Of a stretch of 64,000 nt of DNA, positions 13,557 to 64,000 are shown one piece after another. Each line of letters begins with the position of its first letter. The stretch's first letter is position 1. Origin of the DNA: Amyelois transitella (lineage: Eukaryota > Arthropoda > Insecta > Lepidoptera > Pyralidae); assembly GCF_032362555.1 (NCBI RefSeq), contig NC_083517.1, positions 1,198,001 through 1,262,000 of the forward strand. Direction: 5' to 3'. The translations under genes were made by a program, and so were the position numbers. Below the pieces are notes generated by a model. It ran no database searches and had not been told where the DNA came from. It saw only the letters and a program-made list of their open reading frames with translations.

Positions 13557-16500
13557 ATGAAATATCTGTGTGTAATTATTGTTTTATGCTTTTCTTCGTG
13601 TGAAAGTCAATCGCCCGCCTCAGAAAAAGTGGATTCTCCCTCACTGACAAAGGGAAATTCGTTATCCGAACAGAAATGGAATATAAAACTCGACGTAAAT
13701 TTTTTTAAAAATTTCCCATCGGTAATAAGAAAATCTCTTGGCAGTAATGCTCGTTTGAAGTGCGAGGTTATAGTGAATTTCACAAAAGTTGAAAGATACA
13801 TAAAAAACAAGGAAGGCGTTGAGACTATTCTGAAAGAATCACCTCCTGAACACATTCAACAAGCATTGATGAAAAATGTCAAAATTCATTGGCTCAAAGA
13901 CAATAAACAGGTAACAGATTCGGGAAGATTAAATATTTCGTCGAGTGTTAACATTAACAATAGTACAATAGCAGTTAGCTTACTCATTAAAGATATTCAA
14001 AATGATGATAAAGGAAATTACTCATGTGTTATCAAGCAAAATGATAAGAGGCAGACAACTGTGTTGAAAGTTGTGAAAGATAAAGATGCATTGAAGAAGT
14101 ATGAGATACCGACATACACACCATTGTTTCCAGAGTCTGATAACAACGAATTGGAGATGACTGTGCAAACTACATCTGACATCGCATTGGAGAGCATGAG
14201 ATCTCAAACAACTAACCATAGAGAACCAGAGAACAAATTGAAAGCCTCCCAGAAGTTGCAACCCATCTGTCAGGAGTACGTTGGTGCTGTCTGTGACTCA
14301 TACTTGAGGGGCCAGTTTGTTTACATCCCTTACGAAACAACTCAAGCATCGCTTGAAGACAAGTTGGGTAAAGCTTTAAGAGTCACACAGTATTCCAATG
14401 ATATTAGCTCTAATTGCGAAGGGTATGCCTTACCTAGTCTCTGTTATTCAACCTTCCCTATCTGTAGAGACCCAATTGTGACTAATGATAACTTCTACAA
14501 AGAAGCTAAACAGATTCTAGAACTACTTTCATCCTCAGATGATGAACCCAAAATAGAATTTGATAATTTGCCTCAAGGAATAGTTCCTCTTCCAAATAGT
14601 AGATTAAGTAAAAATGTTACTATTGAAATGTTGAATTATCGCCACAACTCAACAGTATTACGGAGAGTGTGTAAACAAGACTGTGAGATACTGGAAAATG
14701 AACTGTGTCAAACTGAGTATGCCATAGCGAAAAGACATCCTCATATTGGCCAGCAGCTGGATCTAGAAGAGTGTCATAATTTACCAGAAAATGATCCTGA
14801 TTGTCTCAAAATTGGTATAGGAGCTGTGATGGTTTCGGATGATGAATGTTACTGGGAGAACGGCAGTGGTTACCTCGGCCGAGTGAGTGTAGCGGACAAT
14901 GGCATGGCCTGCATTCCTTGGTCTAAACAAATGCATGTGAAATTATCTGACCACCCTGAGCTAGCGGGACGACACAGCTACTGCCGTAACCCTGGCGGCA
15001 CAGCATCGCAACCCTGGTGTTTTGTAGAAAGAGACGGCAAAGCCGAAAGACAACTTTGTGACATCCACAAATGTGCTCATAAAATATGGATTTACATTGT
15101 CGTAGTGTTCTTCTTGCTAACACTGTCTATCGTCGGGTTCATCATCTGCATATGTTACAAGCACAAAAATAAAAATAATGCGGCCGCAATCAGAGACATA
15201 AATTTACCAAATGCTGATAAAAATATTTATGGAAACTCTCGATTGAACTCGCCCATAGAAATGAATGAATTGTTGACCAACCAAAACATGAGCAACCAAC
15301 CTCACCTCACTAGGAATACTCGTGGTAACGGTGTTCTGAGAATACCCCAATATTCTCTATCACAGATAAAGTTCTTGGAAGAACTTGGTGAAGGTGCCTT
15401 TGGTAAGGTTTACAAAGGTGCTATAAAGAAGAATGGTGAAACGCAGTATGTGGCTGTGAAGGCATTGAAAGAGAATGCTTCGGCTAAAACCCAAGCAGAT
15501 TTTAGGAGAGAGATTGATTTGATTTCGGAGTTGACTCATGAGAATATTGTGTGTATTGTGGGTGTGGCTTTGAGAGAGGAGCCATTGTGTATGCTGTTTG
15601 AGTTCATGGCTCGTGGGGATTTGCACGAGTTTCTGATGGGCCGGGCGCCGCCCTCGGGGAAAGGACTGCCGCCCATGCGTCTGTTGAACATAGCGAGTAA
15701 CATCGCATCAGGAATGCAGTATCTTGCGTCTCATCATTATGTACATAGAGATTTAGCAGCTAGGAATTGCCTGGTCTCCGACGACTTTGTTGTGAAAATT
15801 TCCGATTTTGGCCTTTCAAGAGATATTTATAGTTCTGATTACTACAGAGTGAGTAAATCCCGATTTGTTTTTTTACATACATACATACATATGGTCACGT
15901 CAATATCCCTTGCGGGGTAGACAGAGCCAACAGTCTTGAAAAGACTGAATGGCCAAGTTCAGCTATTTGGCTTAATGATAGAATTGAGATTCAACTAGTG
16001 ACAGGTTGCTAGCCCATCGCCTAAAAAAGAATCCAAAGTTTGTAAGCCTATCCCTTAGTCGCCTTTTACGACATCCATGGGAAAGGGATGGAGTGGTTCT
16101 ATTCTTTTTTTTTTTTTTGTTTTTTTATGTTTCAAATCTATGTCAATTTGGATAAGTTCTTTTAAGAAGAATTGATATACCTAGTTTTTTATGTGGTTTC
16201 TTTTTCAGGTTCAATCAAAAAGCTTGCTGCCCGTGAGATGGATGCCTCCTGAATCCATTCTCTATGGCAAATTCACGACGGAGAGTGACATCTGGTCGTA
16301 TGGAGTGGTCCTGTGGGAAATTTATAGTTATGGTCTACAACCTTATTATGGGTGAGGATTTTACATTTATTTTTTTTTTATTTTTTTTTTTTAATAGCCT
16401 TTATTCGCTGACTTTGTACATTTTTATTTCATTACACAGAATAAGCTGATTTGGAATGAAGTGTGTGTTCTTCATGCATCAGCAACCAGTTGTTGGTCAG

Positions 16501-19500: not shown

Positions 19501-21684
19501 AATAGCTTATCTTCTAATCTTGCTGTAATGTCTGAATTCTTAACCAAAACCGTTTCGATGGTAGAGCATGCACGCATGCCTCTAATGAAATGAAACTTGG
19601 CAGTATACGAACGGATTTTTTTATTTTTTTTACACTAAATACGGTCTAAAAAATAATCCAAAAACGGTTTTCCCACACTCCTTATAGTTTGGTAGACCTA
19701 TCCAACAAAATACTAATCTATAGAAAAAAAAAAGATAAAAAATAAAATAATCTCTATTTCATGTGATAGGTAGTTATGAAGCCTATCTTCACCTATCACA
19801 TGAAATAGATCACGTCACATTTAAAATTTCTGATCAATTTGAAAAAAACTTCTTGAATACAACCGTGTAGGTTCAGCAATCAGGAAGTAATAGCGATGGT
19901 CCGCGGGGGCTCCCTGCTGGCGGCGCCGGCGGGCTGCCCGGCGCCGCTGTACGCGCTCATGCGGGGCTGCTGGGCCGCCGCGCCGCAGCGGAGGCCCAAC
20001 TTCCAGGAGATCTGTACCAGGTACGCCGCAACCTCAAATATTATCGATTAGGTAAATTCGAATTAAATTTTTTTATTAATTATTACAGGACACTTTATAT
20101 CACTTAATAATTGACATATCTTTTAGTTTCACGTCAAATGAATTACTTAAAACTAAGGTAACTGCCGCTTCCAAAGCGTCAGTTCAGAAGAAGCGGTAAC
20201 AAACTGCACTACAGCATTTTCTTAAAGACAACCTTGCAGTGTCTTGTAGTTTCCGGTATTTTAATAGAATAGGACCGTTCCATCTATAGATAAAGTAAGC
20301 GGCGACTAAGGGAATAGGTACATATTCATCTAGCGAAGCTTTTACTTTTTTAATGATCACATATGGATTAAGTTCCGGAGGTCAGACGGGAGTCTTTCAC
20401 GACATCCATGGGAAACTGATGGAGTGGTCATATTCTTTTCCTGTCAGTGCCGGGAACCACACGGCACACTATTATGTCATATGTATCTATGTCAAATTTA
20501 AGCTTTTTTCTCAACAGAATCGAGGAGTGGATCCAAACGGGCGGATGTCCGGAGGCGGCGGAGTGCGCTCGCGAGCCAGAGCGCGCGCCGCTGCTTGCGC
20601 ACGCGTCGTCTTCTAACGGCTCGTTGCACACCAACAGGTGATTGTCATTAATTCTCTCATTCTCTTCTTTACATACATATAATTCGATACATATCTTTCT
20701 ACTCTATCCTAAGTATATGTTATTATTATGTATTTATCTGTATTTATGCGTATTTGTATGTATTTATATGTATTATATATAGATATATATTCTGTATGTA
20801 TTTTATTATATTCAAACATTAATTTATCTTGCTCTGCGCCAACGCCGATCTCCTGTTTGGTTTCCTTCCACCCAAAGGTTGACTGGAAGAGATTGCATTA
20901 GCGATAAGTCCGCCTTTGTACCATCTATATCTGCTTTGTGTTGTTTTGTATGTTTTACTCTTATGATGCAATAAAGAGTTTTATCTATCTATCTACATAC
21001 ATATAATCACGTCTATTAGTGCCGTGTGGTTCCCGGCACCAATACAAAAAAGAATAGGACCACTTCATCTCTTTCCCATGGATGTCGTGAAAGGCGACTA
21101 AGGGATAGGCCTATAAAATTGCGATCCTTTTTTTAGGCGATGGGCTAGCACTATTTGGATCTCAATACCATCATTAAGCTGAGTAGCTGAACGTGGCCAT
21201 TCAGTCTTTTCGGGACTATTGGCTCTGTCTACCCCGTAAGGTATATAGACGTGACTTTATGTATGTATGTATGTAATCACATCTATATCCCTTGCGGAGT
21301 AGACAGAGCCAACAGTCTTAAAAATACTGATAGGCCACGTTCAGCTGTTTGGCTTAATGATAGAATTGATATTCAAATTGTGACAGGTTGTTAGCCTGTC
21401 ACCTAAAATGTAAAAAAAAGGAATAAAAACAAAATAATAGAAACAGTAATAGTGTCACACAATATACGATTTGTCAACAAATTGATAAACGAAACAGCCT
21501 CAAGAAATTCAGCACGGCCAGCTCCAGCCTCAGGGTCTCCGACGACGCCCGTTCCACTTGCAGCGACGTGCCCCCCCTCGCCCCGAAAACAAAGAAACAT
21601 AGCGCCGCCTCCCTCATAGACGACAGGGTGGGCAGAGATACGGTCGTGAGGATACCCAATACCAATTTTGGCAATGAGATTTAA
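13557..21684 (+). CDS. Ror: Ror-family receptor tyrosine kinase
   Basis: Five exons (13557-15848, 16209-16351, 19871-20020, 20518-20637, 21498-21684) total 2892 nt, giving 963 residues in unbroken frame. Order: signal peptide (1-17); Ig-like domain (about 60-160); Frizzled-type cysteine-rich domain starting PICQEY near 235; kringle (about 415-503); single TM helix near 509-533; kinase from about 605 with GEGAFG, VAVK (Lys635), [11 protein letters not shown] and activation-loop YSSDYYR. This combination is found only in Ror receptors, which bind Wnt ligands. The Ig domain, present in vertebrate RORs, is retained. The start is the ATG at 13557 because it gives a clean signal peptide; the frame opens slightly upstream without an ATG. 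Exons three and four are strikingly GC-rich. The last exon's coding end is the first unit of the tandem array at 21595-22610. A LINE lies in the second intron and SINEs in others. Confidence 0.95.
15873..16110 (-). mobile_element. TGTA-tail SINE in first Ror intron
   Basis: Antisense copy beginning with (ATAC)n only about 25 bp after the GTGAGT donor. The distal head is replaced by a poly(T) run. It fills most of the 360-bp intron. Confidence 0.75.
16371..19336 (-). mobile_element. Nearly complete APE-type LINE in second Ror intron
   Basis: The element is antisense to Ror. An exact 13-bp direct repeat, ATTTTACATTTAT, flanks it at 16358-16370 and 19337-19349. Its 3' end (left in the window) carries an A-rich tail seen as T runs. 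The 5' end is near 19336, just beyond the ORF, so the copy is probably full length or almost so. Confidence 0.9.
16472..19246 (-). CDS. LINE endonuclease-reverse transcriptase
   Basis: A 924-codon uninterrupted frame, open further upstream without an ATG to about 19336 (the upstream part encodes [11 protein letters not shown], a typical endonuclease start). An AP-endonuclease domain comes first ([26 protein letters not shown]), then reverse transcriptase ([50 protein letters not shown], and RFADDIVLF as the catalytic box). The C-terminal WTGHIL and [12 protein letters not shown] blocks are shared with insect RTE-like elements. The FADD variant of YADD is common in non-LTR enzymes. It shows no frameshift and may be active. 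The exact clade was not determined. Confidence 0.85.
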   Translation of the reverse strand: MSDDKLQELEEAISHINWDIIGLSEVRRLGKEIREYKEYVFCFYREKRGSHGTGFLIKKYLKDKIISFNGISNRIAVLKIQLPEFKQPFTIIQIYAPTEIDSKEAKDIFYKDLTQLIQNTTRNIILMGDFNAQVGSKTNKDEFVLGNYSSAGDRNKNDNGQRLVDLAFANNLKIMNSFFKKKNSRKWTWMSPRKDKNEIDFILTRDKRIFSDIDVVNNLNFSTDHRMVRGTILLRKNKSRKHITSCNTNKITRSSLEQNVLNDLKLALHDLEKHDTLQKRYDSLETNLINLNKINTIREKKNKIGEEALKLMEVRKELLKDRKQNYTTISTLSKNIRMAIRKHKKGERLEILNEQIEKTGGLKKGLKQLREYTQWIPNMKTKNKNKSTIKRSSIAKIATEFYKDLYSQIDFTEIRKKEYQSSEEKILCILESETIKAIRSLKNDKAPGDDKISSELLKESLPVTSKHTTNLFNEILETKQIPTQWAKSTIILLHKKGDKNDINNYRPICLMSNLYKAFSKVILGRITKQLEENQPNEQAGFRSDYSTIDHIHVVKQVMEKLNEYGKHYYIAFIDYRKAFDSINHNYIWEALQNQGVHMTYIEIIKEIYKNSTAQVQLEKQGEEFSIRRGVKQGDPLSPKLFTAVLEEIFRKLDWENFGININGVNLNHLRFADDIVLFAEKPDILQNMIQQLDQESRSAGLYMNSAKTKLMTNAVRDTITLGKDTIEYVDEYIYLGQLISINDQYTKEISRRISTAWKRYWSLKEIFKNKTIQLSTKSKLYNTCILPCLTYGCQTWPTTMKNNQKLAVCQRNMERSMLNIRLRDRWENTKIRKRTKLNDVIQKIRKLKWNWTGHILRTNKEKWTKDLMEWYPRNGKRQKGRQIKRWSDDLPKGWRRSARNRDEWKAMGEAYVNGQPDQQLVADA
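19350..19870 (+). other. Rest of second Ror intron, with a hairpin
   Basis: AT-rich intron DNA. It contains a perfect 18-bp inverted repeat at 19754-19771 and 19791-19808 with a 19-nt loop, reported separately as a finding. Confidence 0.6.
20078..20467. repeat. Mixed repeat remnants in third Ror intron
   Basis: 20078-20226 matches other window copies (near 31258 and 43076) sharing CTGCCGCTTCCAA(A/G)GCG and AGAAGAAGCGG, an imperfect palindrome. 20396-20467 is the head of a minus-strand TGTA-tail SINE (CATCCATGGGAAACTGATGG to CCACACGGCAC), only 50 bp before exon four. Confidence 0.55.
20818..20998 (+). mobile_element. LINE 3'-end/SINE repeat with (TATC)n tail
   Basis: Contains CTTGCTCTGCGCCAACGCCG, GGTTGACTGGAAGAGATTGC, TAAGTCCGCCTTTGTACCAT and GCAATAAAGAG before a TATC run. 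Related copies lie near 29870, 30072, 32512 and 59628. Probably the 3' end of a Jockey- or CR1-type LINE; the coding part is absent. Confidence 0.6.
21018..21273 (+). mobile_element. TGTA-tail SINE-like retroposon, full length
   Basis: Complete plus-strand copy in the last Ror intron. Its tail abuts the tail of the next, opposite copy. Confidence 0.8.
21274..21403 (-). mobile_element. TGTA-tail SINE, 3' half, tail-to-tail with its neighbour
   Basis: Opposite orientation to the copy at 21018, truncated about halfway. The pair makes an imperfect inverted repeat about 95 bp upstream of the last Ror exon. Confidence 0.75.
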
Positions 21685-22610
21685 CATATTAATAGATTTG
21701 TTAAGTAAAGAACACCCCCCCCCCCCTTACATTCGCCCTTAAAATTAAAAAACAACGCCGCCTCCCCCTTAGGGTGGGCAGAGATACGGTCGTGAGGGTA
21801 CCCAATACCAATTTTGGCAATGAGGATTTAACATATTAATAGATTTGTTAAGTAAAGAACACCCCCCTTAATAAACCCCCTCTACATTCGCCCTTAAAAT
21901 TAAAAAAACAACGCGGCCCCCCCCCCCGTTAGGATGGGCAGAGATACGGTCGTGAGGATACCCAATGCCAATTTTGGCAATGAGATTTAACATATTAAGA
22001 GATTTGTTAAGTAAAGAACACCCCCCCCCCCCTTACATTCGCCCTTAAAATTAAAAAACAACGCCGCCTCCCCCTTAGGGTGGGCAGAGATACGGTCGTG
22101 AGGATACCCAATACCAATTTTGGCAATGAGATTTAACATATTAATAGATTTGTTAAGTAAAGAACACCCCCCTTAATAAACCCCCTCTACATTCGCCCTT
22201 AAAACTAAAAAACAACGCCGCCTCTCTCTTAGGGTGGGCAGAGATACGGTCGTGAGGATACCCAATGCCAATTTTGGCAATGAGATTTAACATATTAATA
22301 GATTTGTTAAGTAAAGAACACCCCCCCCTTAATAAACCCCCTCTACATTCGCCCTTAAAACTTAAAAAACAATGCCGCCTCCCTCTTAGGGTGGGCATAG
22401 ATACGGTCGTGAGGATACCCAGTACCAATTTTGGGAATGAAATAATAGATTTGTTAAGTAAAGAACCCCTCCTTAAAAGACCCCCTTTTTCACACTCACC
22501 CCCAAAACTGAAAATACATAGCGCCGACTACCTCATAGACAGGGTGGGCAGATACTGTTGTGAGGATATCCAATGACCTAATCTTAATAGATTTGTTAAG
22601 ACCCCTTTCT
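21595..22610 (+). repeat. Seven-unit tandem array born from the Ror coding end
   Basis: The marker CGGTCGTGAG (CTGTTGTGAG in the last unit) recurs at 21641, 21787, 21947, 22093, 22247, 22404 and about 22555, giving periods of 146, 160, 146, 154, 157 and 151 bp. Unit 1 contains the last Ror codons ([10 protein letters not shown]...NFGNEI) and stop. Later units repeat the same codons plus the stop-proximal 3'UTR with indels. Spacers alternate between a pure C run and a longer form with TTAATAAACCCCC, so the inner units look like dimers. The last unit keeps AGCGCCG and CATAGAC features seen in unit 1 but not in the middle units. Confidence 0.92.
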
Positions 22611-24124
22611 AAATAACAAATACATTGTAATTTTTATAAATAATTAAATTTATACATTTTTAAGTCGCCACGTCACGGATCGGTGTAGTTAAAATCTTAG
22701 CCAATATGGGATAAGTTGTAGCTTTTTATAATAATTTATTAAATGTACATTTGATCTTTAGTAGTTATTTGGTTAAAAAGTTAAGAACGTCGTTTTCAGA
22801 ATATCAGTGGGTTGAAATATTGTTTGTACAGTCCACTGCAGAGAAACCTGACCTCTTTGCACAGGTCTGCAGTTGACTGTATCATGTTTCACATAAGAAA
22901 GTAGAGAATACTACCTTGATGTAGTGGTTTATTTTACTATTTCCCCCGTCGTATAGCGGAGGTCAAAAAGTCCATTCGTTCTTAAATCAATTTTTCATAA
23001 TATTATCCTTTCTAGCGTTTCTTTTGTTGTAAATAACTAAAATGTAAGTAAAATAAGTAAAATGATAAATATCCACAAACCTTTGGAAAATTTGTATTTG
23101 GACTTTTTGCTGCGACTAAATCAGACATAGATAAAGGCTGATTTAAAAAAATCCGTCTATTTATATGGACTTGGCACATAGTAATTTAGGTCAAGCAAAT
23201 ATCAGCACTTATCATTATGTATGTTAGGTAAAGAAATTATATACAATTTTTTAGTAACGCCTTTACATAGTTCTTTTGTAAAATAAAAAAAAACCCTACG
23301 TTCGAAATTTTAAATGCGAAATTTTATTTTCAGTATGTCAGTGAAAATGTCGCAGCGCGAATTTCTTAGTCTATGGTACTCTCCTGTTCCTCATTGTGTA
23401 ATTTTTTTTTACATAAGTTTACAATTTATTATACAAACTAGCTTTAATCCTATTTGTAAATGTACTTAATGTAAGTAATTTGTACGGTGTTATTGTTTGT
23501 GTGTGTATTCGACGACATAAACTTTCGTTAAAATATTTTTTTTTCGTAATTTTGATATAATTGTCAGAAACTAGCCACGTGCAGAACTAGTTTAGTTTAT
23601 TTTCTTTTAATGTAGTTTTAAGTCAACGAAATTATTGAATATAAAAACAATCAAACATTTTCGATGAGTACATTATATTTCATTTTATACTTTTATACGA
23701 AGTACCAAATTTTTATTTTTTAAGTATCCAAAACTAACTATAAATAAAACAAAAACCTGTACTATTAATTAAAGAATTTTTGTTTATGCTACGTATTTGA
23801 GGCAATAGAATATTATGTAAGAACTGTTACATAAATTATTTTAATTATGTTAAAGTACCTATATTATTCCGTTTAGTTCTAAGTTTAATTTAAATATTTA
23901 TTGTATTGCTCGTTAGGATTAAGCAACCAGCAGACATTTTGTGTATTATACTTAGATAATTTAAAAGAAAATTTATTTTAATTGTTTTGTAAAACGCATT
24001 TACAAGATGCGTTTGATAATAGGATTTATGATTGCTTTTTTATATTGATAAAACCTTTCCTCAATTATGTTTCATCTTCCCGAGGTTTGATAAGAAGCCG
24101 CCTATTTGATATTTTTTTTTGTTT
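22611..24124. other. Ror 3'UTR or intergenic DNA
   Basis: About 1.5 kb of AT-rich sequence with no ORF, SINE or Helitron end recognised. Some may be Ror 3'UTR; no poly(A) site could be singled out. Confidence 0.3.
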
Positions 24125-28031: not shown

Positions 28032-31000
28032 CTATTTTATCAAAGCCACGGAGGATTCCAGTACGTTTGCTGGCTTGGAATCGTCCGCGACTTTGTTCCT
28101 CTTAACGATAACGTCTTCTCCATGAATTCGCATGTGGACTTTGAGATTGTGGTTCCCCGTGAAACCTCTGCTGCAAATCTTGCATACATACGGTTTTTCA
28201 CCTGAAAATAACATTCAATTATTGAATATCTAATGTCGTTGTGTAATGGTGGACTGTATAATCAGATGAAATAAAATCAATTATTATTATGAAATTCGTA
28301 AGCAGATTAATAGAAAATAAAAAATATACTGAAAAAGGTTTTAACAAAAAATTGTTTACAAAAAATGAAATTTTCTGGCAATACGATAAGGATCAAGCCG
28401 TGTGGTTCCCGGCACTAAAGAAAAGGACCACTTCATCAATTTCCCATGGATGTCGTAAAAGGCGACTAGAGGATATGCTTATATACTTGACATTCTTTTA
28501 CACGATGTGCTAGCAAACTGTCACTATTTGAATCTCAATACTATCATTAAACATATAACAGCCGATGTTGGCCTATCAATCTTTAAAGACGAAACGAAGC
28601 GATATACCTACTTGGACATACATACATACATCACGTCACGTCTATATCCCTTGCGGGGTAGACAGAGCCTGTAGGGGTAGCAGTCTTGAAAATACTGAAT
28701 GGCCACGTTCAGCTATTTGGCTTAACGATAGAATTGAGATTCAACTAGTGACAGGTTGCTAGCCCATCGCCTAAAAAAGAATCCCAAGTTTTTAAGCCTA
28801 TATTATAATAAATATTGAAATGAACACATTGAACCTACCTGTGTGCACACGCCTATGTTTCAACAGAACAGTGTAAGAATAGAATCTCGCACCGCAGTAC
28901 TCGCATCTCTGTTTTTTAACACCATCATGTCTATCAATGTGAACACTGAGCGCGTTGCGGCTGCGATATGCGGCTGCGCACCTCCCACACTTGTACCGCG
29001 GCTCGGCGTCGTGACGAACACCTATTATTTTATGTACCTATGTATGTGTGTGATTATAAGAATGAACGAAATGAACGAATCGAACCCACCTGTGTGCACA
29101 CGTCTATGTTTCAACAGAACAGTGTAAGAATAGAATCTCGCACCGCAGTACTCGCATCTCTGTTTCTTAACACCGTCATGTGTACCTATGTATGTGTGTG
29201 ATTATAAGAATGAACGAATTGAACCCACCTGTGTGCACACGCCTATGTTTCAACAGAACAGTGTAAGAATAGAATCTCGCACCGCAGTACTCGCATCTCT
29301 GTTTCTTAACACCGTCGTGTCTATCAATGTGCACTCTGAGCGCGTTGCGGCTGCGATATGCGGCTGCGCATCGCCCACACTTGTACCGCGGCTCGGCGTC
29401 GTGACGAACACCTATTATTTTATGTACCTATGTATGTGTGTGATTATAAGAATGAACGAAACGAACGAATTGAACCCACCTGTGTGCACACGCCTATGTT
29501 TCAACAGAACAGTGTAAGAATAGAATCTCGCACCGCAGAACTCGCATCTCTGTTTCTTAACACCGTCGTGTCTATCAATGTGCACTCTGAGCGCGTTGCG
29601 GCTGCGATATGCGGCTGCGCACCTCCCACACTTGTATCGCGGCTCGGCGTCGTGACTGTGAGAGTGGCGCGTGAGTGACTTCTTGTTGTTGAACACCTGA
29701 AAAAATTGAAAAAATCTTTATTTCCGAGCCGTCGTTGAACACCTATTATTTATTTATTTATTTGTTTATATTTATCTATAACTTAATCTCTTTAATTAAT
29801 TATCTCTAACTTAATCTCTTAAATTCTCTTAATCCCTCTTTAACTCTTTATTGCACATAAAAATAAATATAACAAAAATAGAACAGTCATTGGATATACT
29901 TAGAAGAATACGTACAATGGCGGACTTATCCCAATCGTGATTTCTTCCAGCCAACCAAAATAAAATGGAAAATCCATAATCAAAGAGGCAGCGCAGATTA
30001 AAAGCATTGAGGATGCGTTACAACAATCAATTAATTACAAACTAATTAATAATAAACAAACATACATAAATTTTTATTTTGGTTGACTGGAAGAAATCCC
30101 GATTGGGATAAGTCCGCCATTGTACATATTCTTCTATATCCAATGACTGTTTTATTTTTGATATATTTATTTTTATGTGCAATAAATAGTTTACAAACAA
30201 ACATAAATATAAATAAACTTAAATGTTAGATGCATCATAATACAGTCTTTTGATTAGTGTTTTAAAAGAACTAAGGTTACGGGCAGATCTCGTATCTAAA
30301 TTTTATTTATATTTATCACTACATAGTATAAAACAAAGTCGCTATTTTAGTCTGTTTGTCTGTATGCTTAAATCTTTAAAATTACGCAACGGATTTTGAT
30401 GCGGTTTTTTGTAACAGGTAGAGTGATTCAAGAGGAAGGTTTTTATGTATAATTTTTCCGAATTTTGCACCCGTGCGAAGCCGGGGCGGGTCGCTAGTTA
30501 TATTTATATTATACTAGAGGCCGCCCGCGACTTCGTCCGCATGGAAACCCTATCAATCCCGCGGGAACTCTGGGATAAAAAGTAGCCTATGTGTTATTCT
30601 GGGTCTTCAGCTACCTACATACCAAATTTCATGGTAATCGGTTCAGTAGTTTTTGCGTGAAAGAGTAACAAACATCCATACAAACTTTCGCCTTTATAAT
30701 AGTAGTAGGATTTATTTATATTTACCTTCCCGCACAAGGGACAAACACCGCCGTTGGATTTGCAAACGTGCTCTTCGTATTTAGTTTTGTCTATGAATAT
30801 TTTGCTGCACATTTTGCACGTGAACTTGACCGGTTGGTGTTTTCTCAATTTGTGGTGCTGAAATTTTGGGTTACATTTTTTACAAACATACATACATACT
30901 TACAATATAACTAAGAGTCTGGATAAGGACATAGGGTACTTTTCATTCCGATATTAACTACATTACCTGTGTTTTTTTGTGAAAAACATGTATTCTTGTG

Positions 31001-49228: not shown

Positions 49229-49948
49229 GACATCTTCGTGTCTTCTAAACGATTTATAGGAAATGTTTTTTATAAAGTATTATTAAATATTTCATTGGTA
49301 CTATATTCAATTGCTGGAAATAAGATTTTGATCGCTGTTTCATTTCCATCAAATTTCCTATTTCATTTCATTTTCATTTAGATCATGATGTTGATGACAT
49401 TTTTCTGACATTTCAATGCAACGACATGACAATGACATTTTGTTTCTTTGAAATTGTATGTATTTCGCTCAAAGAAAATTAGGTGAAGCTTTCAAGGCTC
49501 ATTCGAGTTTAACTCTGGATATCCTATAAATGTAATGGGAGATTAACTGAATGTAAAATTCCCGAGATTGCGTGTCGCGACGTCTTACATAAAATATGTT
49601 AACTAATGAAAACTCTTCGCTATTTACCTACTATTATAATCTAAGTAATCTCCTGAAAAATACGCTGTGGTGGAGCAGAATAGAAAAGTCATTATCATAT
49701 TCATGTGAAAAAATAAGTTGACAAAGTTAGTTCAATTAAATGACGTTGTCATTGACAATGTCAATATGTCATTAAAAAGCATTAAGACCCGGCTCGGGAG
49801 GCGAATAATTATATTATGTATCAAACGAAAACATTATTTCATTAATAATTCTGATTATTTCCTTAAAAAATAGATTTCTAATACACCTTTGGTGCAGAAA
49901 AACCATTGGGAACCCATATTTTATAAAGTGAAGTAAAGAGCTAGTAAA
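49229..49948. promoter_or_regulatory. Shared 5' region of VPS54 and LARP7
   Basis: 720 bp between divergent start codons. Clusters of GACAT/ATGTC repeats (TGATGACATTTTTCTGACAT near 49390-49440 and GTCATTGACAATGTC near 49745) resemble those upstream of DPAGT1. No TATA box assigned. Confidence 0.5.
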
Positions 49949-52900
49949 ATGTCTGAATCCGAATCAGCAGATGTAGAAACAGTGGAAGGGACTAAACAAG
50001 AAAGTAGTCCGAGAAAACGAGTTAGACATCGCAAGAAGCAGCTCTATGAGAATATTTTGAAACAAATGGAGTTTTATTTCAGTGACGCAAACCTTAATAA
50101 GGATAGGTTCTTGGGCGAACTAATTAAGAAAGAACCGTTTGTTCCATTAGAAATATTTTTAAAATTCAATAAAATTCGGTCTATGACCCAAGATATTAAT
50201 GATATTGTGAAAGCTATGAAGAATTCTACAATTTTGGAGCTTTCAGAAGATAAAACTAAGGTATGGTTCAAAAATTATTTTAGAGAATTCAATGTGGTTT
50301 ATTTTTCACAACTTGATTTGCAGTGAAGCATTCAAATTGAACTGATAATTTCAGGTAAAGAGGCAAACTCCTATACTCCCGTACGATGCAGATCAAAGGA
50401 CAGTATATGTGGAGTCTATACCTGTGACAGCGAGCAGGGAGTGGCTGGAGAGGGTGTTCTCGGATTATGGTCGAGTAGCTTATATTTCATTGCCCAAGTT
50501 TAAGAATTCACAAAGAATTAAGGTACAAAATATATTTTTCAATATTTTTTTTTATATTGTTGTAGTAACCTAGATAATTTCTTTATTATTTTCTTGGTTG
50601 GTAGTAGAGTTTCCCCTATTAAATAAATAAAAGGGCTTAAAAAAATAATATGTACTGAATACTACTACAAATACTTTTAGGAATATTTATCTGAGAAATT
50701 TGATTACCACATTTTCAATACTCACTGAGTGGCTATCAGATGAAACAAAATTAAACATAGTTTCATTTGTATTTGGATCTTTTTGTGTCAAACTCAATGT
50801 TTCAACATAAAGAGATCCACACCTACACAAGAGTGGAAGGTATTTTAAAAAGTATGATAGACTTTGTGATTGTAGATGAAAGATTGAAGAACAAAGTGCT
50901 GGATACCCGTGCATATCACGGTGCTGGCATTGACTCGGACCATTTACTGGTGATATCCCGGATAAGGGGTATCTTCAATCGCTGGCGGCACAGGGTAAGG
51001 GAGCAAACCAGCGCTTTGGAAAGAGTAAAAGTAGAAAATTTGCAAGATATGGATGTAGGGAAGAAGTATATTAATAGACTGAAGGATGAATTTGAAGATT
51101 TAGAGGAAATGAGCGATATTGAAGATGGATGGAAGGAATTTAAAGAAAGAATTGTGAAAGTAGCTGTTGAAGTGTGTGGTGTAAGTAGAAGAAGGAAAGG
51201 AAAAAATCACAAAAATGCGTGGATGAGTAAAGATGTGCAAGAACTTGTGCGATTAAAGAAGAAAGCATGGCTGGATTTGTTAGCAGCAAAAGCTAACTTA
51301 AGAATGCAAGAGGTTATAGATGAAGATGTGAATGAAGCACGTAAGGAATATAAGAAAATGAAAGATTTGGTTAAGAAAGCTGTGATTAGAAAGAAAGAAG
51401 AGTATAAAGAGGATTTTGATAAAAGGCTATCAGAAGACTTTCAGTCAAATCTGAAAGTATTCTGGAAATCCGTAAGGTCAGCCCGAGGAAATACTATAAC
51501 CAGAGAGCTGACTAGGATCAGATGCCAGGATGGTAGCGTTGTGAAAGGAGAAGAATGTGTACTAAAGATATGGAAGGACTATTTTGAAAGTTTATTTGAA
51601 AAAAAGGAAGGAAATAAGAAAGATTTCTGCTATAGCGAAGAAAAAGAGAATGAGATGGAAGGCGAAATTGAAATGTTCGAAGTTGTGGAAGCACTTAAGA
51701 GTATGAAAGCGGGAAAGGCTGCTGGGTGTGATAGAGTGTCGGTCGAGATGCTTAAAGCAGGAAAAGGCGTAGTAGCTAGTCAGTTGTACTGCCTTTTCAA
51801 TTTGTGTTGGAGAAGCGGCCGAGTACCAAAAGATTGGTGTAAGGCTGTTATCGTGCCACTTTACAAAGGAAAAGGGTCACAGCTGGACTGCAAAAATTAT
51901 CGTGGTATAAGCCTGCTTAGCGTCGTCGGCAAATTGTATGCTAAGGTATTGATTAATAGAGTCAGGAATGAAACTGATGACAAAATATGGGATGCTCAAG
52001 CGGGATTTCGAAAGGGAATGGGATGTACTGATCAGGTCTTTTCCTTGCGGTGCATAGCCGAAAAGTTTTTGGCCAAGAGTCAAAAAGTCTATTGCACATT
52101 CGTAGATCTGGAAAAGGCCTATGACAGAGTTGAGAGGAATGAATTGTGGTCAGCACTTTCTATGCATGGGGTGAGCAGTCTCTTAATACGAGCACTGAAA
52201 TCCTTATATGAGGATTCGAGTGCTTGTGTCAGGATAAACGGAGCGCACACTGAGTGGTTTAAGATTGAGAAAGGCGTTAGGCAAGGATGTGTTGCGTCAC
52301 CGTGGCTGTTCAACCTATTTATGGATAGCTGTTTGACAGATTTGAAAGAGTCTAAAAGTGGATTAAGGATGAATGAGTTACTCGTCAAATGTCTGCTCTA
52401 TGCCGACGATCAGGTTATACTGGCGTCATCAGCGGAGGAGTTACAGGAGATGGTAAACTGTATGCATGAAGCTTTAAAAGAGAAAGGAATGAAAGTGAAC
52501 GTAAGTAAAACTAAAACACTGGTTTTTGAAATGGAGAAAGAAATGACAGCATGTAATATTTTGATTGGAGGAGAAAAAGTGGAGCAAGTGAAAGAGTTTG
52601 TATATCTAGGATCAAAGTTTACATCAGATGGCAAGTATGATAGTGATATTGAAAGGAGAGTGAACGCGGGGAACATGGTGAATGGAGCTTTGCATGCCTT
52701 TATGAGCAGTCAGAAACTATCCAAAAAGGCTCGACTGGCTGTGCACAGGGGCGTGTTGGTCCCGACATTAATGTATGGGAGTGAAAGTTGGGTATGGCAA
52801 AAGAAGCATGAAAGCAGAATAAATGCAGTGGAAATGAGAGCGTTAAGGAGTATGATGGGTGTGAAATTGAGTGACAGGATAAGGAACAGCGTGATAAGGG

Positions 52901-55900
52901 AATGTTGTGATGTGAAAGAAGATGTAGTTACAGGAATAGAAAAGGGTATGTTAAGATGGTTCGGTCATGTGGAGAGGATGAATGAAAGCAGGTTGACTAA
53001 GCAGATATACAAGGAGAGTGTGGAGGGAAAGGTCGGAGTGGGAAGGCCTAGACGAACGTATCTTGATCAAATTAAGGACGTCCTGGTAAAGGGTCAGGTC
53101 AAAAGTACCCGAAACCGCCGAGCTTGTATGAAGAGAGTTATGAATGTGGACGAAGCGAAAGAAGTATGCAGAGATCGTGGCAAGTGGAAAGAGGTAGTCT
53201 CTGCCTACCCCTCCGGGAAAGAGGCGTGATTTTATGTATGTATGTATGTATGTTTCATTTGTATTGTATTAATGACTCATACATACATACAGTCTTGTCT
53301 ATATCCCTTATGGGGTAGACAGAGCCAACAGTCTTGAAAAGACTGATAGGCCATGTTCAGTTTTTTGGTAATTAATTAATTGATTTCTGACTCAAAGTTG
53401 GCAAATAAATGTTTAAAATCTTAGAATTATCTGAGTAAATGGTTAATGTTTGAAATTCAGTAAATTATCTTATCAGGATTTAGGAGAGGAGTTGAGAGCA
53501 ATTCTTGTCATTGTCGTTGTGATGCCTCTACTATTTATATTATAGTACATGTATGTAGGTTTTTCTATTGATATTTGTAATTAAAAGTGAATGCAATTTA
53601 GGTTTATTAGTATCAGTTAGTTTATGTGTGTTAAGTTTATATCTAATTAAAAGTTAAAAAACAGTATTTGTATGTAACTTTTTAATAATTATAACAAATA
53701 TCAAAACTATAAATTGAACATAAATTAAAGAAATTAAAAGAAATAATTCTAATAATATAATGATATTTGGGTGTATTTGTAGGTGAACAAATACACCCGA
53801 ATATAAAACTAACGCTTATGTACAAAAAAGCAAGTCCCAGCATTGTATGTACACTAGCCAATGCCTTTCTTTAATACAAGAAGAAATTTCGTAAGAAATA
53901 AGAAAAGAACAGATATAATTGTCTGTGTTTGATCAAGTTCAACAGTTTTACTGAATCTACTTTTCCAGGGTTATGGATTCATAGAATTTAGTAAACCTGA
54001 GGAAGCACAGAAATGTATCAGCACTTTCACCAAAATGGGATGCAAACTTCCGACATGTATGCCTCCGGAAGATCTTTCCTCTATAAAAATGTTCAGTGTG
54101 GAACCACCTTTAGATGACACACCGGAAGAGAGAGAAGATTTTGAGCCACCAAAGAAGAAGATGAAGAAGAATAAAGACAAGAAAGCACATAAAAATCTGG
54201 AATTGAAACTGGAGCTTGAGTCTGATCGTGAAAAAACATTGGATACACCAACGGTAAGAATTTAATAAAAAAAAATTTTCAAGTTCTTATTACAAAGTGT
54301 GCTGATCAGCCATATAAAAATTAAAGACTCAGAGTTAAAAGTGTCTCAACAAAAGTCTGTGTGTGCTGCCAGTCTCTCATGGTCTCAAACTATGGGTCTC
54401 TTAAATAGGCTCAGGGTCACTCAGTGAGCCATGGAGAGAGCTATGCTCAGTATTTCTCTGCAAGATCAAATGAAGAGATTCATGAAGTAGTGTGTCGACA
54501 CACACTACTCAAAATGTGTTTTCTTAATATTGATCAGTTTTCCTTTCAACCCATCAGACTTAATAAAATTTCAACAAACAAATCACATTAATAAGTCTGG
54601 TGGGTTGAAGAACAATTAATAAGAAGGGTGTTGTGGAGATACAGTTTTGTATAGCTCATCTTTCATTTGTTTTCAGAAAGAAGATGCCAGTGTATCTACG
54701 CCAACAGAAGTAAGTAAATTCTTTATTTCATCATAGCACTGTTGGATGTAGGTGTATCCAGTATTTGTTTGTTTTGACCTTTTGTAGTCTAACAGGTCCC
54801 AGTTTAAAAATCACTCGGAACCTTATATAAGTATACTACTCTGTCAAGAAAGTAGCAGGAAAAGATCAATATGTAATACACAAACTGTTTGTTATTCATC
54901 CAAATTTATTTTATCACCTTCAAAATATGCTCCTTTAGAAACGATACACTTACGCCAACGAATAATCCAATCATCAAAACATTTTTTAAACGCTGTTTCC
55001 GGAATTGAGGTCAGTTCTCGCCGCGAATTCTCTTTTATGTCTTCTACCGATTGAAAACGGGTGCCACGAAGTGGTAATTTGAGTTTAGGAAAAAGAAAAA
55101 AGTCGGCTGGAGCCATATCTGGTGAATATGGTGGTTGCTCGATGGTATTTGTTGAGTGTTTGGTTAAAAATTCGTTCACAATGATGGCCTTGTGCGAAGG
55201 TGCATTATCATGGTGCAAAATCCAAGAATTTTCTTTCCACAAATCTGGCCTTTTTCGTCGGATTTGCTCTCTTGAACGCCGCATAACACTCAAATAATAT
55301 TCCTTATTTACCGTTTGACCTTCCGGCAAGAATTCCGAGTGCACAACACCGCGATAGTCAAAGAAAACAGTCAACATGACTTTGACTTTTGAACGACTTT
55401 GGCGTGGTTTTTTCGGTTTCGGTTCAGTTGGAAGGCGCCACTCCGAAGCTTGTTGACTAGTTTGCATGTCAAACTCGTAAACCCACGGCTCGTCACCAGT
55501 AACAATGCGTTTCATGAATGTTGGGTCGGAATTGACTCGTTCTAGCATGTCCTCAGCGACTCTCATGCGATAGAGTTTTTGAAAAAAATTCAGGTCTTTT
55601 GGGACTAGCCGAGCGGCAACATGTTTCATACCCAAATTATTAGTTAAAATGGTACGGATCGACTCGTGAGATACAGAAAGTTCGGTGGCTATCTCTCTCA
55701 AAGTTGAATGAGGATTTTCAGTCACTATTTCCTTCACTTTTGCGATGTTAACTTCAGTTGCAGACGTTGATGGCCTACCAGAGCGAGGCAAATCTTCCAT
55801 CACATCTCGACCGCTTTTGAACGCTTTGTACCACTCATAAGCACGAGTTTTTGATAAAGTCGATTCACCGTAAGCCTTCTGTAACATTTTCAGTGACTCC

Positions 55901-58403
55901 GAACACGATATTCCATTGGCAATGCAAAATTTAAGACAAACTCTTTGTTCGATGTTTTTATCCATTATGAAATTAGCAATACACACTAGATATGATATAA
56001 CTAAAAATAGCACTGTATTTAATGTAAACAACAGATGCAACTCAAACTCCGCGCCAAAATGGAAAACAGTTGTGCCAATCTAACAACAACAAAAAAAAAC
56101 AAAAATTTTAATTTGGAACCATAAATAAATAATCCATTCCCGATACTTTTCTGACTGAATGTACAACATCTGGAGAATCATTCCATCCTATTATTATATA
56201 TTTATTTTGTTTAGAAAACCATTGGCATTACTTATTAATTTCTATTTCATCAAGAAACTAAATATTTAAGGAAAAGCATGTGAAATTACAGATTCATTTG
56301 CATTTAATAAAAAAAAAACTTTAAATATTCCAGGAAAAGCATGTAGACTCCTCCAAAGAAGAATTAACAAGTCAAGACGAGGGTAAAGATGACCAAACTT
56401 CGCGCAAAAAGAAGTCAAGAAAACGTACGGCCAAAGAGCGGAGTCGGGCCAAAAGGAATTCCCATAAAAATGAAGCCCCTAAAGGCGCGTTATGGGGCCT
56501 ACAAGTACTGCCCAAATCCGAGTGGAAGGTCCTTAGGAATAAATACCTGAATTTGCAGAAGAAATATATGAAGGAAATGAAAGCGAACATTAAAAATAAT
56601 AGACATTTGTATTGTAGTATTCCTGCGCCGGCGGCGCCTTCTGTTGAAGTGGAACCAGGTAGGGTTTTTTTATAATTAAAAAGAAAATAGGACCGCTCAA
56701 TAGTTCCCATGGATGTCGTAAAAGGTGACTAATGGATGGGTTTTTTAAGTTGGGATTCTTTTAAGCAATGAGCTTGAAGAAAACTGTCACTATTCTATCA
56801 TTAAGCCTAAAAGCTGAACGTTGCCTATCAGTCTAGCAGCCGACATATAGACGTGATTATATGAATGAATGAATAAAAAGAGATTTCTTTGAAGTGGCTT
56901 CTTATATTATTTTAAAATCGCTATGCTCAACGGGGTTCATATTTACCTACTTAAGACTGACTGTAATTCAACTGTTGCACATACTATATGATAAGTAAAT
57001 TGAATATAGTATATATATATATATATACTAGCTGTCCCGGCAAACGTTGTTTTGCCATATTAATATGTTTAAAGTAATTTCTAGTTAAAAAAAAATGTTA
57101 AGGGTGGACAACCCTTAACACTTAGGGGTATGAAAAATAGATGTTAGCCGATTCTCAGACCTACTGAATATGCATGCAAAATTTGGTTAAAATCGGTAAA
57201 GCCGTTTCGGAGGAGTACGGAGACAAACATTGTGACACGAGAATTTTATATATAAGAGATATACATATATATAAATATTTTATTTATTTCAACTGTTTAG
57301 CTCTAGATTGTGGCGAAGAAGCGAAGCCCGCTGAAATGGAGCGTCTGTCCGGGGTGTTTGTTAAGGAGGAACTACAGGAGCCCTGCTTTGACGTCAGACT
57401 CACAAAGAGAACGGTGAACTTTATATTTGTATTTTACATTACTGAGTGCCATGTGGTTAACTAGGTCATTGAGTTAAAAAGCGTATGTCCTGGGTCTGGT
57501 AGTTGGGATTTATCTATCTTCCCAGTACATACATACATATATTCACGCCTATATCCCTTGCGGTGCAGACAGAGCCAATCGCCTTGAAAAGACTGATAGG
57601 CCAACGTCGTTGTTTGGCTTAATGATAGAATGGAGATTCTAGTAGTGACAGGTTGCTAGTCCATCGCCTAAAAGAGTAATCCCAAGCCTATCCCTTAGTC
57701 GCCTTTTATGACATCCTAGGGAAAGAGATGGAGAGGTCCTATTCTTTTTTTATTGGTGTCGGCAACCACACGGCGCTATATGATAGTATGTAATAGTATT
57801 TCAGTATGGATATGGACGGCAATGATTACAAAACGCTAAACCTATTTTTTTCGCAGATCCGAAGCAATATCCACGTTTTGCACGTTGACGTGAAAGAAGG
57901 TCAAACTGAAGTCATTATAAGATTTGATTCTCCAAAAGCCGCTGAGGAGGTAAGCTATTCTTCTTGTAAGTGATGGGCTAGCAACCTGTCACAATGAACT
58001 GATCAAACGATGAAGTGATCTTATAAGATCAAGACAGATTATATATCTTTTACTTTGAAATAAGAAGTTAGTTATTTATGCGTTAACATAGACTGTTTTT
58101 ATTTTTTCTGCTCTTGCTTTAATCGCCCCCCAACATATTAAAACAATAAATTGTATTTTCAATGTAATTTCCTATTTAACAATATGTATCCGGTTCCAGT
58201 ATGCGCAGCAGCCGGGCAGCCGCGCGGCGGTGCTGCGCGGGGCGGCGGAGGGCGAGCAGTGGGCCCGCGCCGAGGCCGCGCGCTCGCGGTCCCGCGCGCG
58301 CGGGCCGCGCCTGCCGCAGCGCGGGCCCGGCGGCGGCGCGCGGCCCGCGCTCGCGCCCGCCTCGCCGCAGCCCACTCACACGCACATACGCTTCGATGAA
58401 TAG
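49949..58403 (+). CDS. LARP7: La-related protein 7
   Basis: Eight exons (49949-50260, 50355-50522, 53969-54253, 54677-54709, 56334-56658, 57301-57413, 57857-57949, 58200-58403) give 1533 nt, 510 residues. LARP7 binds the 3' end of 7SK RNA and stabilises the P-TEFb-sequestering RNP; it also assists U6 modification in some animals. Visible parts: La motif (about 33-110, QMEFYFSDANLNKDRF), RRM1 (about 115-185, TVYVESIP and GYGFIEFSK), a basic linker (KKKMKKNKDKK, SRKKKSRKRT), and a C-terminal xRRM with IHVLHVDVKEG, VIIRFDS and EGEQWARAEAARSRSR, matching the helix that replaces RNP features in xRRMs. Exon six has two in-frame acceptors 6 bp apart. The last exon is extremely GC-rich. Introns hold a LINE, a mariner and SINEs. 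Confidence 0.94.
50767..53229 (+). CDS. LINE reverse transcriptase with endonuclease remnant, copy 2
   Basis: Open for 820 codons. The first about 15 codons come from flanking or junction sequence. Then an endonuclease C-terminal piece (MIDFVIVDERL, GIDSDHLLV) precedes the full RT and C-terminal region, identical in blocks to copy 1. Because most of the endonuclease is gone, the element is unlikely to mobilise itself. Its intact frame shows the insertion is young. Confidence 0.9.
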   Translation: MYLDLFVSNSMFQHKEIHTYTRVEGILKSMIDFVIVDERLKNKVLDTRAYHGAGIDSDHLLVISRIRGIFNRWRHRVREQTSALERVKVENLQDMDVGKKYINRLKDEFEDLEEMSDIEDGWKEFKERIVKVAVEVCGVSRRRKGKNHKNAWMSKDVQELVRLKKKAWLDLLAAKANLRMQEVIDEDVNEARKEYKKMKDLVKKAVIRKKEEYKEDFDKRLSEDFQSNLKVFWKSVRSARGNTITRELTRIRCQDGSVVKGEECVLKIWKDYFESLFEKKEGNKKDFCYSEEKENEMEGEIEMFEVVEALKSMKAGKAAGCDRVSVEMLKAGKGVVASQLYCLFNLCWRSGRVPKDWCKAVIVPLYKGKGSQLDCKNYRGISLLSVVGKLYAKVLINRVRNETDDKIWDAQAGFRKGMGCTDQVFSLRCIAEKFLAKSQKVYCTFVDLEKAYDRVERNELWSALSMHGVSSLLIRALKSLYEDSSACVRINGAHTEWFKIEKGVRQGCVASPWLFNLFMDSCLTDLKESKSGLRMNELLVKCLLYADDQVILASSAEELQEMVNCMHEALKEKGMKVNVSKTKTLVFEMEKEMTACNILIGGEKVEQVKEFVYLGSKFTSDGKYDSDIERRVNAGNMVNGALHAFMSSQKLSKKARLAVHRGVLVPTLMYGSESWVWQKKHESRINAVEMRALRSMMGVKLSDRIRNSVIRECCDVKEDVVTGIEKGMLRWFGHVERMNESRLTKQIYKESVEGKVGVGRPRRTYLDQIKDVLVKGQVKSTRNRRACMKRVMNVDEAKEVCRDRGKWKEVVSAYPSGKEA
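50774..53252 (+). mobile_element. Young 5'-truncated TGTA-tail LINE, copy 2, in LARP7 intron
   Basis: Flanked by an exact 13-bp duplication TTTCATTTGTATT at 50761-50773 and 53253-53265, with a (TATG)n tail. It is longer than copy 1 by about 200 bp at the 5' end and is on the same strand as LARP7. Confidence 0.93.
53278..53370 (-). mobile_element. TGTA-tail SINE fragment
   Basis: Tail-first minus-strand fragment 12 bp beyond the LINE's right target duplication; CCATGTTCAGTTTTTTGG marks its truncation. Confidence 0.6.
53371..53968. other. Intron DNA with a small hairpin
   Basis: Holds a perfect 12-bp stem GGGTGTATTTGT/ACAAATACACCC (53769-53798, 6-nt loop). Otherwise featureless AT-rich sequence. 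Confidence 0.5.
54340..54620 (+). pseudogene. Relic LINE RT C-terminus with inverted repeat
   Basis: 54428-54490 translates as AMERAMLSISLQDQMKRFMK, which resembles the region after the RT domain in many RTE-like LINEs; flanking sequence is broken. It is followed by an 18-bp near-perfect inverted repeat (54544-54561 and 54593-54610) around TTCAACCC/GGGTTGAA. Confidence 0.45.
54836..56162 (-). mobile_element. mariner-family DNA transposon in LARP7 intron 4
   Basis: Inverted ends pair over 24 bp with 17 matches (54838-54861: ACTCTGTCAAGAAAGTAGCA...; opposite end 56160-56137: ATTCAGTCAGAAAAGTATCG...), with TA next to each end. Size about 1.3 kb as expected for mariner. Exact boundaries are uncertain by a few bases. 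Confidence 0.88.
54892..55965 (-). CDS. mariner transposase
   Basis: 357 codons from MDKNIEQR; the frame extends upstream with an implausible hydrophobic leader, so the MDKN start is preferred. An HTH region comes first (EWYKAFKSGRDVMEDLPRSGRPS, STLREIATELSVSHESIRTIL), then the catalytic acids in TGDEPWVYEF, HHDNAPSHK and YSPDMAPADFFLFPKLK. The spacing between the last two Asp is 34 residues, the D,D34D of mariners. The WVYEFD and PYSPDMAP motifs match the family. No stop or frameshift is present, so the protein may be functional. Confidence 0.92.
   Translation of the reverse strand: MDKNIEQRVCLKFCIANGISCSESLKMLQKAYGESTLSKTRAYEWYKAFKSGRDVMEDLPRSGRPSTSATEVNIAKVKEIVTENPHSTLREIATELSVSHESIRTILTNNLGMKHVAARLVPKDLNFFQKLYRMRVAEDMLERVNSDPTFMKRIVTGDEPWVYEFDMQTSQQASEWRLPTEPKPKKPRQSRSKVKVMLTVFFDYRGVVHSEFLPEGQTVNKEYYLSVMRRSREQIRRKRPDLWKENSWILHHDNAPSHKAIIVNEFLTKHSTNTIEQPPYSPDMAPADFFLFPKLKLPLRGTRFQSVEDIKENSRRELTSIPETAFKKCFDDWIIRWRKCIVSKGAYFEGDKINLDE
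56690..56865 (+). mobile_element. Diverged TGTA-tail SINE
   Basis: AAAATAGGACCGCTCAATAG to ACGTGATTATATGAATG in LARP7 intron 5, starting 32 bp after the donor. Confidence 0.65.
57001..57262 (-). mobile_element. (TA)n run and Helitron-like element
   Basis: A TA microsatellite (57005-57028) abuts CTAGCTGTCCCGGCAAACGT, the reverse of a CTAG-ending element whose other end is near 57262 (TATATATAAAATTCTCGTGT on the minus strand). It ends 38 bp before exon six. Confidence 0.55.
57527..57775 (-). mobile_element. TGTA-tail SINE in LARP7 intron 6
   Basis: Full-length antisense copy with CGCCGTGTGGTTGCCGACAC head on its own strand. Confidence 0.75.
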
Positions 58404-63597: not shown

Positions 63598-64000
63598 CGT
63601 GGCGGCATTACCTTTGATCTCAATTCACTTGATCACACGTGCTTTTTATCACAACTGTACATTTCACTGTAGGGTACTCTGCCATTATTTTTATTTTCTC
63701 ACAATAATTGAAAATAACACACGTGTCAAAATTTAATTTATAACAAAAACAACTCCGCCTTCCACCACATTCCAAACAAACCACCATTTGACAATAACTA
63801 GAGCTATAACAAACTGTATGTATTCGGTACTGAGTAACGGGTATGCGCTCTGGTACCGAGTAACGAAACGTTACTCTCGAATGTATTTCGTTAATCGCAC
63901 GATTTCGTTACTCGCATTTATTGTATAATGGGTTCATTTCACGCATGCGCACATTACGCACGTTTATTCAAAACCGTACGTTACAATAACAAAATACAAA
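63598..64000 (-). promoter_or_regulatory. CACHD1-like 5' flank with GAGTAACG repeats
   Basis: GAGTAACG or its reverse CGTTACTC occurs four times between 63832 and 63916, two of them forming GAGTAACG-AAA-CGTTACTC at 63858. The rest is unremarkable. A transcription start was not assigned. Confidence 0.4.

Follow-up and report, generated by a model that had tools for sequence, protein, structure and literature searches.

A tandem array at the coding end of Ror in Amyelois transitella, probably a minisatellite that grew from a duplicated end of the last coding exon

The receptor tyrosine kinase gene Ror of the moth Amyelois transitella lies in a 64,000-nt stretch of contig NC_083517.1 (positions 1,198,001 to 1,262,000), which we analysed as a single window and in whose positions all coordinates below are given. 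At ~21595-22610 on the + strand, seven units of about 150 bp follow one another head to tail. The first holds the last ~30 Ror codons together with the stop codon TAA at 21682-21684, and units 2-7 are copies of it placed downstream. That the first unit carries the final Ror codons and the stop had already been proposed in a sequence-only reading of the same DNA, and the stop of the reading frame does lie inside unit 1. We consider it likely that the array is a short minisatellite which arose when the end of Ror's last coding exon was duplicated in tandem and which now forms mostly 3' untranslated region (3'UTR) or immediately downstream DNA.

Tandem Repeats Finder (TRF) called an array at 21625-22440 with a period of 146, 5.3 copies, 90% matches and a score of 1320. 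A repeat finder located a 26-nt motif seven times between 21636 and 22575, with copies 88-100% alike and successive spacings of 146, 160, 146, 154, 157 and 151. None of 100 dinucleotide-preserving shuffles of 21400-22700 yielded any TRF array, and the identical command, run on the real region as a positive control, returned the score of 1320. Together, these results confirm the earlier count of seven imperfect units of about 150 bp and show head-to-tail repetition well above chance, as in a minisatellite or variable number tandem repeat (VNTR). A search for further copies in the window outside 21400-22700 gave just seven matches of 17-24 bases, with E values from 0.019 to 0.79, and Rfam (4227 families) gave no match at the gathering score for 20500-24000. 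Six of the 12 runs of at least six C or G in the window fall inside the array and a seventh lies just upstream at 21571. Similarly, 8 of the 12 stretches with an absolute G4Hunter score of at least 1.5 are located at 21559-22506. Instability of the array through G-quadruplexes or i-motifs is possible.

The gene was modelled as five exons on the + strand that join in a single frame and encode a protein of 963 aa. Exon 1 (13557-15848) encodes the Ig-like, Fz-like and Kringle regions and the N-terminal part of the kinase, as well as a hydrophobic membrane-spanning stretch recognised by eye only. The kinase continues through exon 2 (16209-16351) and exon 3 (19871-20020). Exon 4 (20518-20637) ends at the donor CAG/GTGATT with two codon bases left over, and the putative exon 5 (21498-21684) is the last coding exon and ends in the TAA. 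Pfam matches to PK_Tyr_Ser-Thr (3.4e-94), Kringle (6.8e-16) and I-set were all above the cut-off, and Fz matched at 26.2 bits, below its cut-off of 32.1. The closest solved relatives were the kinases ROR1 (7.8e-98) and ROR2 (8.9e-92). Ig, Fz and Kringle regions outside, a kinase inside and ROR kinases as nearest relatives are the features of a Ror receptor tyrosine kinase, with the Fz region below the cut-off, and the earlier identification of the gene is upheld by the domain matches and by these two relatives. We infer exon 5 to be the last Ror exon from its phase and from its composition, with a GC content of 0.57 and a GC content at third codon positions (GC3) of 0.74, compared with a GC content of 0.37 for the window. 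The AG of its proposed acceptor, which ends at 21497, is preceded by a weak tract with 4 of 14 pyrimidines, and an alternative acceptor, also in phase, ends at 21563 with 10 of 14. The intron before the last exon also contains, near the weak acceptor, an inverted repeat at 21149-21382 with 106-nt arms that are 81% complementary and that are possibly the remnant of a mobile element.

Each unit opens with a 5' half in which an AAAA-rich part is followed by GCCGCC and a C/T-rich stretch; a core and a C-rich spacer come next. The core is 81 bases long in units 1, 3, 4 and 5, 82 in unit 2, 71 in unit 6 and 62 in unit 7, and in unit 1 it encodes 19 residues and the stop. Unit 1 (21590-21735) comprises the coding end, the stop and the early 3'UTR and closes with a C12 spacer. 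Units 2-6 have in common a shortened 5' half that ends in TTAG, an acceptor-like site. Unit 2 (21736-21895; TTAG ending at 21772) has one extra base in the copied frame and an AATAAA at 21870, and unit 3 (21896-22041; TTAG ending at 21932) has a C11 run in its 5' half and a C12 spacer. The core of unit 4 (22042-22195; TTAG ending at 22078; AATAAA at 22175) is identical to that of unit 1 over all 81 bases. Unit 5 (22196-22352) has its TTAG ending at 22232 and an AATAAA at 22331. In unit 6 (22353-22503; TTAG ending at 22389), which is without AATAAA, the core is ~10 nt shorter and the copied stop has been removed. Unit 7 (22504-22610) is the most diverged and keeps the 5' half common to unit 1. 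Three AATAAA occur in 21690-22610 and 110 on the + strand of the 64 kb, numbers too small for a claim of enrichment; ATTAAA is additionally found at 21744, 21899 and 22050.

The spacers of units 1-7 are C12, TTAATAAA, C12, TTAATAAA, TTAATAAA, TTAAAAG and a divergent sequence. The alternation of two spacer forms that had been described before is therefore seen across units 1-4 but not beyond, where unit 5 repeats TTAATAAA and the last two spacers are neither form. Units 1-4 can also be read as two 306-bp dimers, with 21625-21824 and 21931-22130 being 98% alike over 200 nt. The proposal that a dimer was amplified thus fits units 1-4, as one duplication of 306 bp, but does not extend throughout the array.

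Comparison of the units suggests an order of events. The 41-nt stretch 21581-21621 is 80% like 22500-22540 in unit 7, compared with 63% for the four inner copies listed, in agreement with the earlier observation that the last unit keeps features of the first. The cores differ from that of unit 1 by 0 mismatches and 0 gapped bases in unit 4, 1 and 0 in unit 5, 1 and 1 in unit 2, 3 and 0 in unit 3, 3 and 10 in unit 6, and 4 and 25 in unit 7, so that divergence is greatest at the far end of the array. Units 1 and 4 match exactly for 96 bases rightward from 21625 and for 0 bases leftward. This edge suggests that the coding core of unit 1 takes part in homogenisation and has recently traded sequence with the other units, and that its 5' half has not. 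The simplest reading would be an old duplication of the coding end, represented by units 1 and 7, then one changed intermediate copy, and then growth of units 2-6. Growth out of the coding end would be the direction indicated by the copies in this one assembly. By hand count, the 19 copied codons in units 2-6 show five amino-acid-changing differences and one to three silent ones (small numbers, with a change common to units 3 and 5 counted once). The copied frame has a frameshift in unit 2 and has lost its stop in unit 6. At these small numbers, the copied codons of units 2-6 give no sign of coding constraint.

The sequence-only reading had also suggested that conversion could alter the C-terminus of the receptor. 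Hypothetical joins of unit 1 to each of the other units were computed by script, either in the 5' half (at GCCGCC) or at the core start. Joins in the 5' half changed the tail with every unit, giving a short frame-shifted tail with units 2, 4, 5 and 6 and another changed tail with units 3 and 7. Joins at the core start left the tail unchanged with unit 4, altered one residue with unit 5 and two with unit 3, and altered one residue plus the last few with unit 2. The core-start join with unit 7 was not used, as that unit lacks two bases there and is out of register by the same amount. The suggestion therefore stands for exchange in the 5' half, but for the core start it yields little or no change with units 2-5 and a read-through with unit 6.

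These observations can be brought together in the following model. The first duplication may have joined C-rich stretches that flank the last ~37 codons, after which the C-runs would have promoted slippage and unequal exchange. At a later stage the coding core of unit 1 would have been reached by unequal crossing-over or conversion, and selection would exclude exchange from the 5' half of this unit because exchange there alters the protein tail. In keeping with a first join of this kind between C-rich stretches, the spacers ahead of other units are similar to the coding sequence (CCCCCCCTCGCCCCGAAAAC) that immediately precedes unit 1. The number of mononucleotide shuffles that reached the observed score, of 2000, was 33 for the spacer before unit 2, 27 before unit 4, 33 before unit 5, 57 before unit 6 and 33 before unit 7; the test covered these five spacers. 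By sequence, the array begins at the proposed stop codon. On a plain reading, the six extra units behind the stop would lengthen the 3'UTR or the adjoining DNA. The array probably leaves the Ror protein unchanged, in that most exchange events would not affect it, and the 3'UTR may be extended and gain as many as three AATAAA motifs. If the model holds, the array is a readable case of the birth of a minisatellite from a gene's own coding end, with older features kept in both edge units. It also suggests that selection on a reading frame can set the border of homogenisation inside a single unit.

Several points weigh against a minisatellite seeded in this way. Exon 5 has a weak acceptor, with 4 of 14 pyrimidines, and is therefore placed by phase and composition. 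The homology of the spacers to the coding sequence that precedes unit 1 does no more than hint at a C-rich junction. When the 5' halves are compared in fixed windows, offsets and indels obscure the picture, with 3 mismatches and 12 gapped bases between units 1 and 7 and 1 mismatch and 22 gapped bases between units 1 and 6. The grouping of units 1 and 7 depends on shared motifs, and the fixed-window comparison is not clean. Not all core exchange would be harmless, as the core-start join with unit 6 produces a long read-through tail. Finally, a plain minisatellite would not lead one to expect acceptor-like sites in units 2-6.

These sites are the ground for a different account, which would also give substance to the earlier suggestion that splicing could alter the C-terminus. 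The inner units would be tiny alternative last exons, with the exon-4 donor after 20637 spliced to the TTAG of a unit. The product would gain a 19-residue tail or a variant of it and drop 43 residues, and the transcript would be ended by the AATAAA of units 2, 4 or 5. Each of the five TTAG sites in units 2-6 matches the phase of the exon-4 donor, so such splicing is possible on paper, although a phase match by itself is expected in one of three cases. Of the 103 AG sites between ~20690 and 22650, these five have the highest pyrimidine content (12 of 14 at -4 to -17) among those with C or T at -3. The tract is C-rich rather than T-rich, however, and two other sites come close with 11 of 14, one at 21136 and one at 21619, which lies in unit 1 and is out of phase. 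On the whole + strand, 7 of 3569 AG sites passed a combined test (at least 12 of 14 pyrimidines, a C or a T at -3, and 60 preceding bases free of AG), and five of these seven were the TTAG of units 2-6; on the - strand 3 of 3462 passed. However, the five share a single origin, and the sites were already known when the thresholds were fixed, so that we treat the pattern as a lead. An in-phase acceptor-like site is thus found in each of units 2-6, AATAAA in units 2, 4 and 5 only (21870, 22175 and 22331), and the end of the copied frame is disrupted in unit 2, with a displaced stop, whereas in unit 6 the stop is lost. We regard it as very unlikely that the units serve as alternative last exons, and just as unlikely that Ror would have up to five interchangeable last exons, three with their own AATAAA, born of a duplication of the coding end and a small subsequent deletion that created the in-phase TTAG. 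Were it true, the number of units would govern the frequency with which the receptor loses the 43-residue piece of its tail. Use of the in-phase acceptors would mean that a repeat array is on its way to becoming a series of alternative last exons.

Duplication out of the coding end also has to be weighed against an origin in the opposite direction, in which the array was already there as repeat DNA downstream before the Ror frame grew into it, making the last ~20 residues an exapted repeat. In line with such an origin, the Ror tail has no Pfam family at E 0.001, and neither the tail nor the unit motif gave a confirmed match when searched for: 51 stretches in viral contigs and 381 in genome contigs fitted the pattern of the exon-5 tail with none confirmed, and the exact 24-base unit motif had no match in viral contigs. 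However, the collections searched were viral and prokaryotic, so these misses say little and have no bearing on insects. In addition, unit 1 is continuous with coding-like sequence upstream (GC3 of 0.86 for 21499-21561 and 0.74 for the exon), unit 7 at the other edge bears a diverged copy of the 5' half of unit 1, and the matches elsewhere in the window are confined to 17-24 bases at E 0.019 or worse. Exaptation of repeat DNA thus appears unlikely. An error of the assembler in the number or the existence of the inner units would be easy to understand, given that C12 runs and near-identical units, such as the 306-bp dimers that are 98% alike over 200 nt, are hard to assemble. No two whole units are identical, though, and units 5, 6 and 7 have private differences, which makes an assembly artefact quite improbable. 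Seeding of a minisatellite from the end of the last Ror coding exon remains the reading that we favour.

The window contains other features away from Ror. Three much-alike tandem copies of a C2H2 zinc-finger coding stretch were recognised by eye in the translated frames at 28801-29717 on the - strand. TRF called 28819-29571 within them (period 390, 1.9 copies, 95% matches), and Pfam was run on one copy, at 29418-29717. These copies are a second tandem duplication of coding sequence in the window. An open frame of 394 codons without internal stops at 54898-56079 (- strand) matches mariner-type transposases (Transposase_1 and HTH_48 of Mos1). On the + strand, an open reverse-transcriptase frame of 821 codons at 50764-53226 belongs to an element resembling a long interspersed nuclear element and is flanked by La-domain coding sequence (49937-50323) on one side and by an open frame (53933-54262) on the other; these two flanking stretches may belong to the same gene. 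A single open frame of 1198 codons at 60031-63624 (- strand) has a Cache-domain match of 33.9 bits, below the cut-off of 45 bits, and looks like a protein that we take to be of the calcium-channel alpha-2/delta type.

The array is best classed among minisatellites, as one that was probably seeded from the coding end of its gene. A literature search returned no Ror array and no array seeded on a stop codon among the matches listed; its 3'UTR wording probably missed papers that print the prime sign, and we claim no absence from print. The SLC6A3/DAT1 gene reportedly has a 40-bp VNTR in its 3'UTR with copy-number variation and possible effects on expression. It resembles the Ror array, as placed from sequence alone, in being a tandem array in a 3'UTR, but its unit is smaller, the Ror unit contains the coding end and stop of the gene itself, and the Ror array is known from one assembly. 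PMC2599865 reports a polarity that was not statistically significant, and we do not use it as support. The gene of human carboxyl ester lipase carries the CEL VNTR in its last exon, an array of 33-bp coding units, each of which is translated (PMC8692231). Both arrays lie in a terminal coding exon, and a frame shift in the CEL array alters the C-terminus; in contrast to CEL, where all units are translated, only unit 1 of the Ror array is in frame and the stop lies inside it. The yeast CUP1 tandem arrays (PMC4232551) have gene-sized units (1998 bp for type 1) with junction homology of 3 bp or less, or none. As is proposed for the Ror array, they were born when a single-copy sequence was duplicated, and unequal crossover could change their copy number later, whereas the Ror unit is part of one exon and has C-rich stretches near the suspected junctions.

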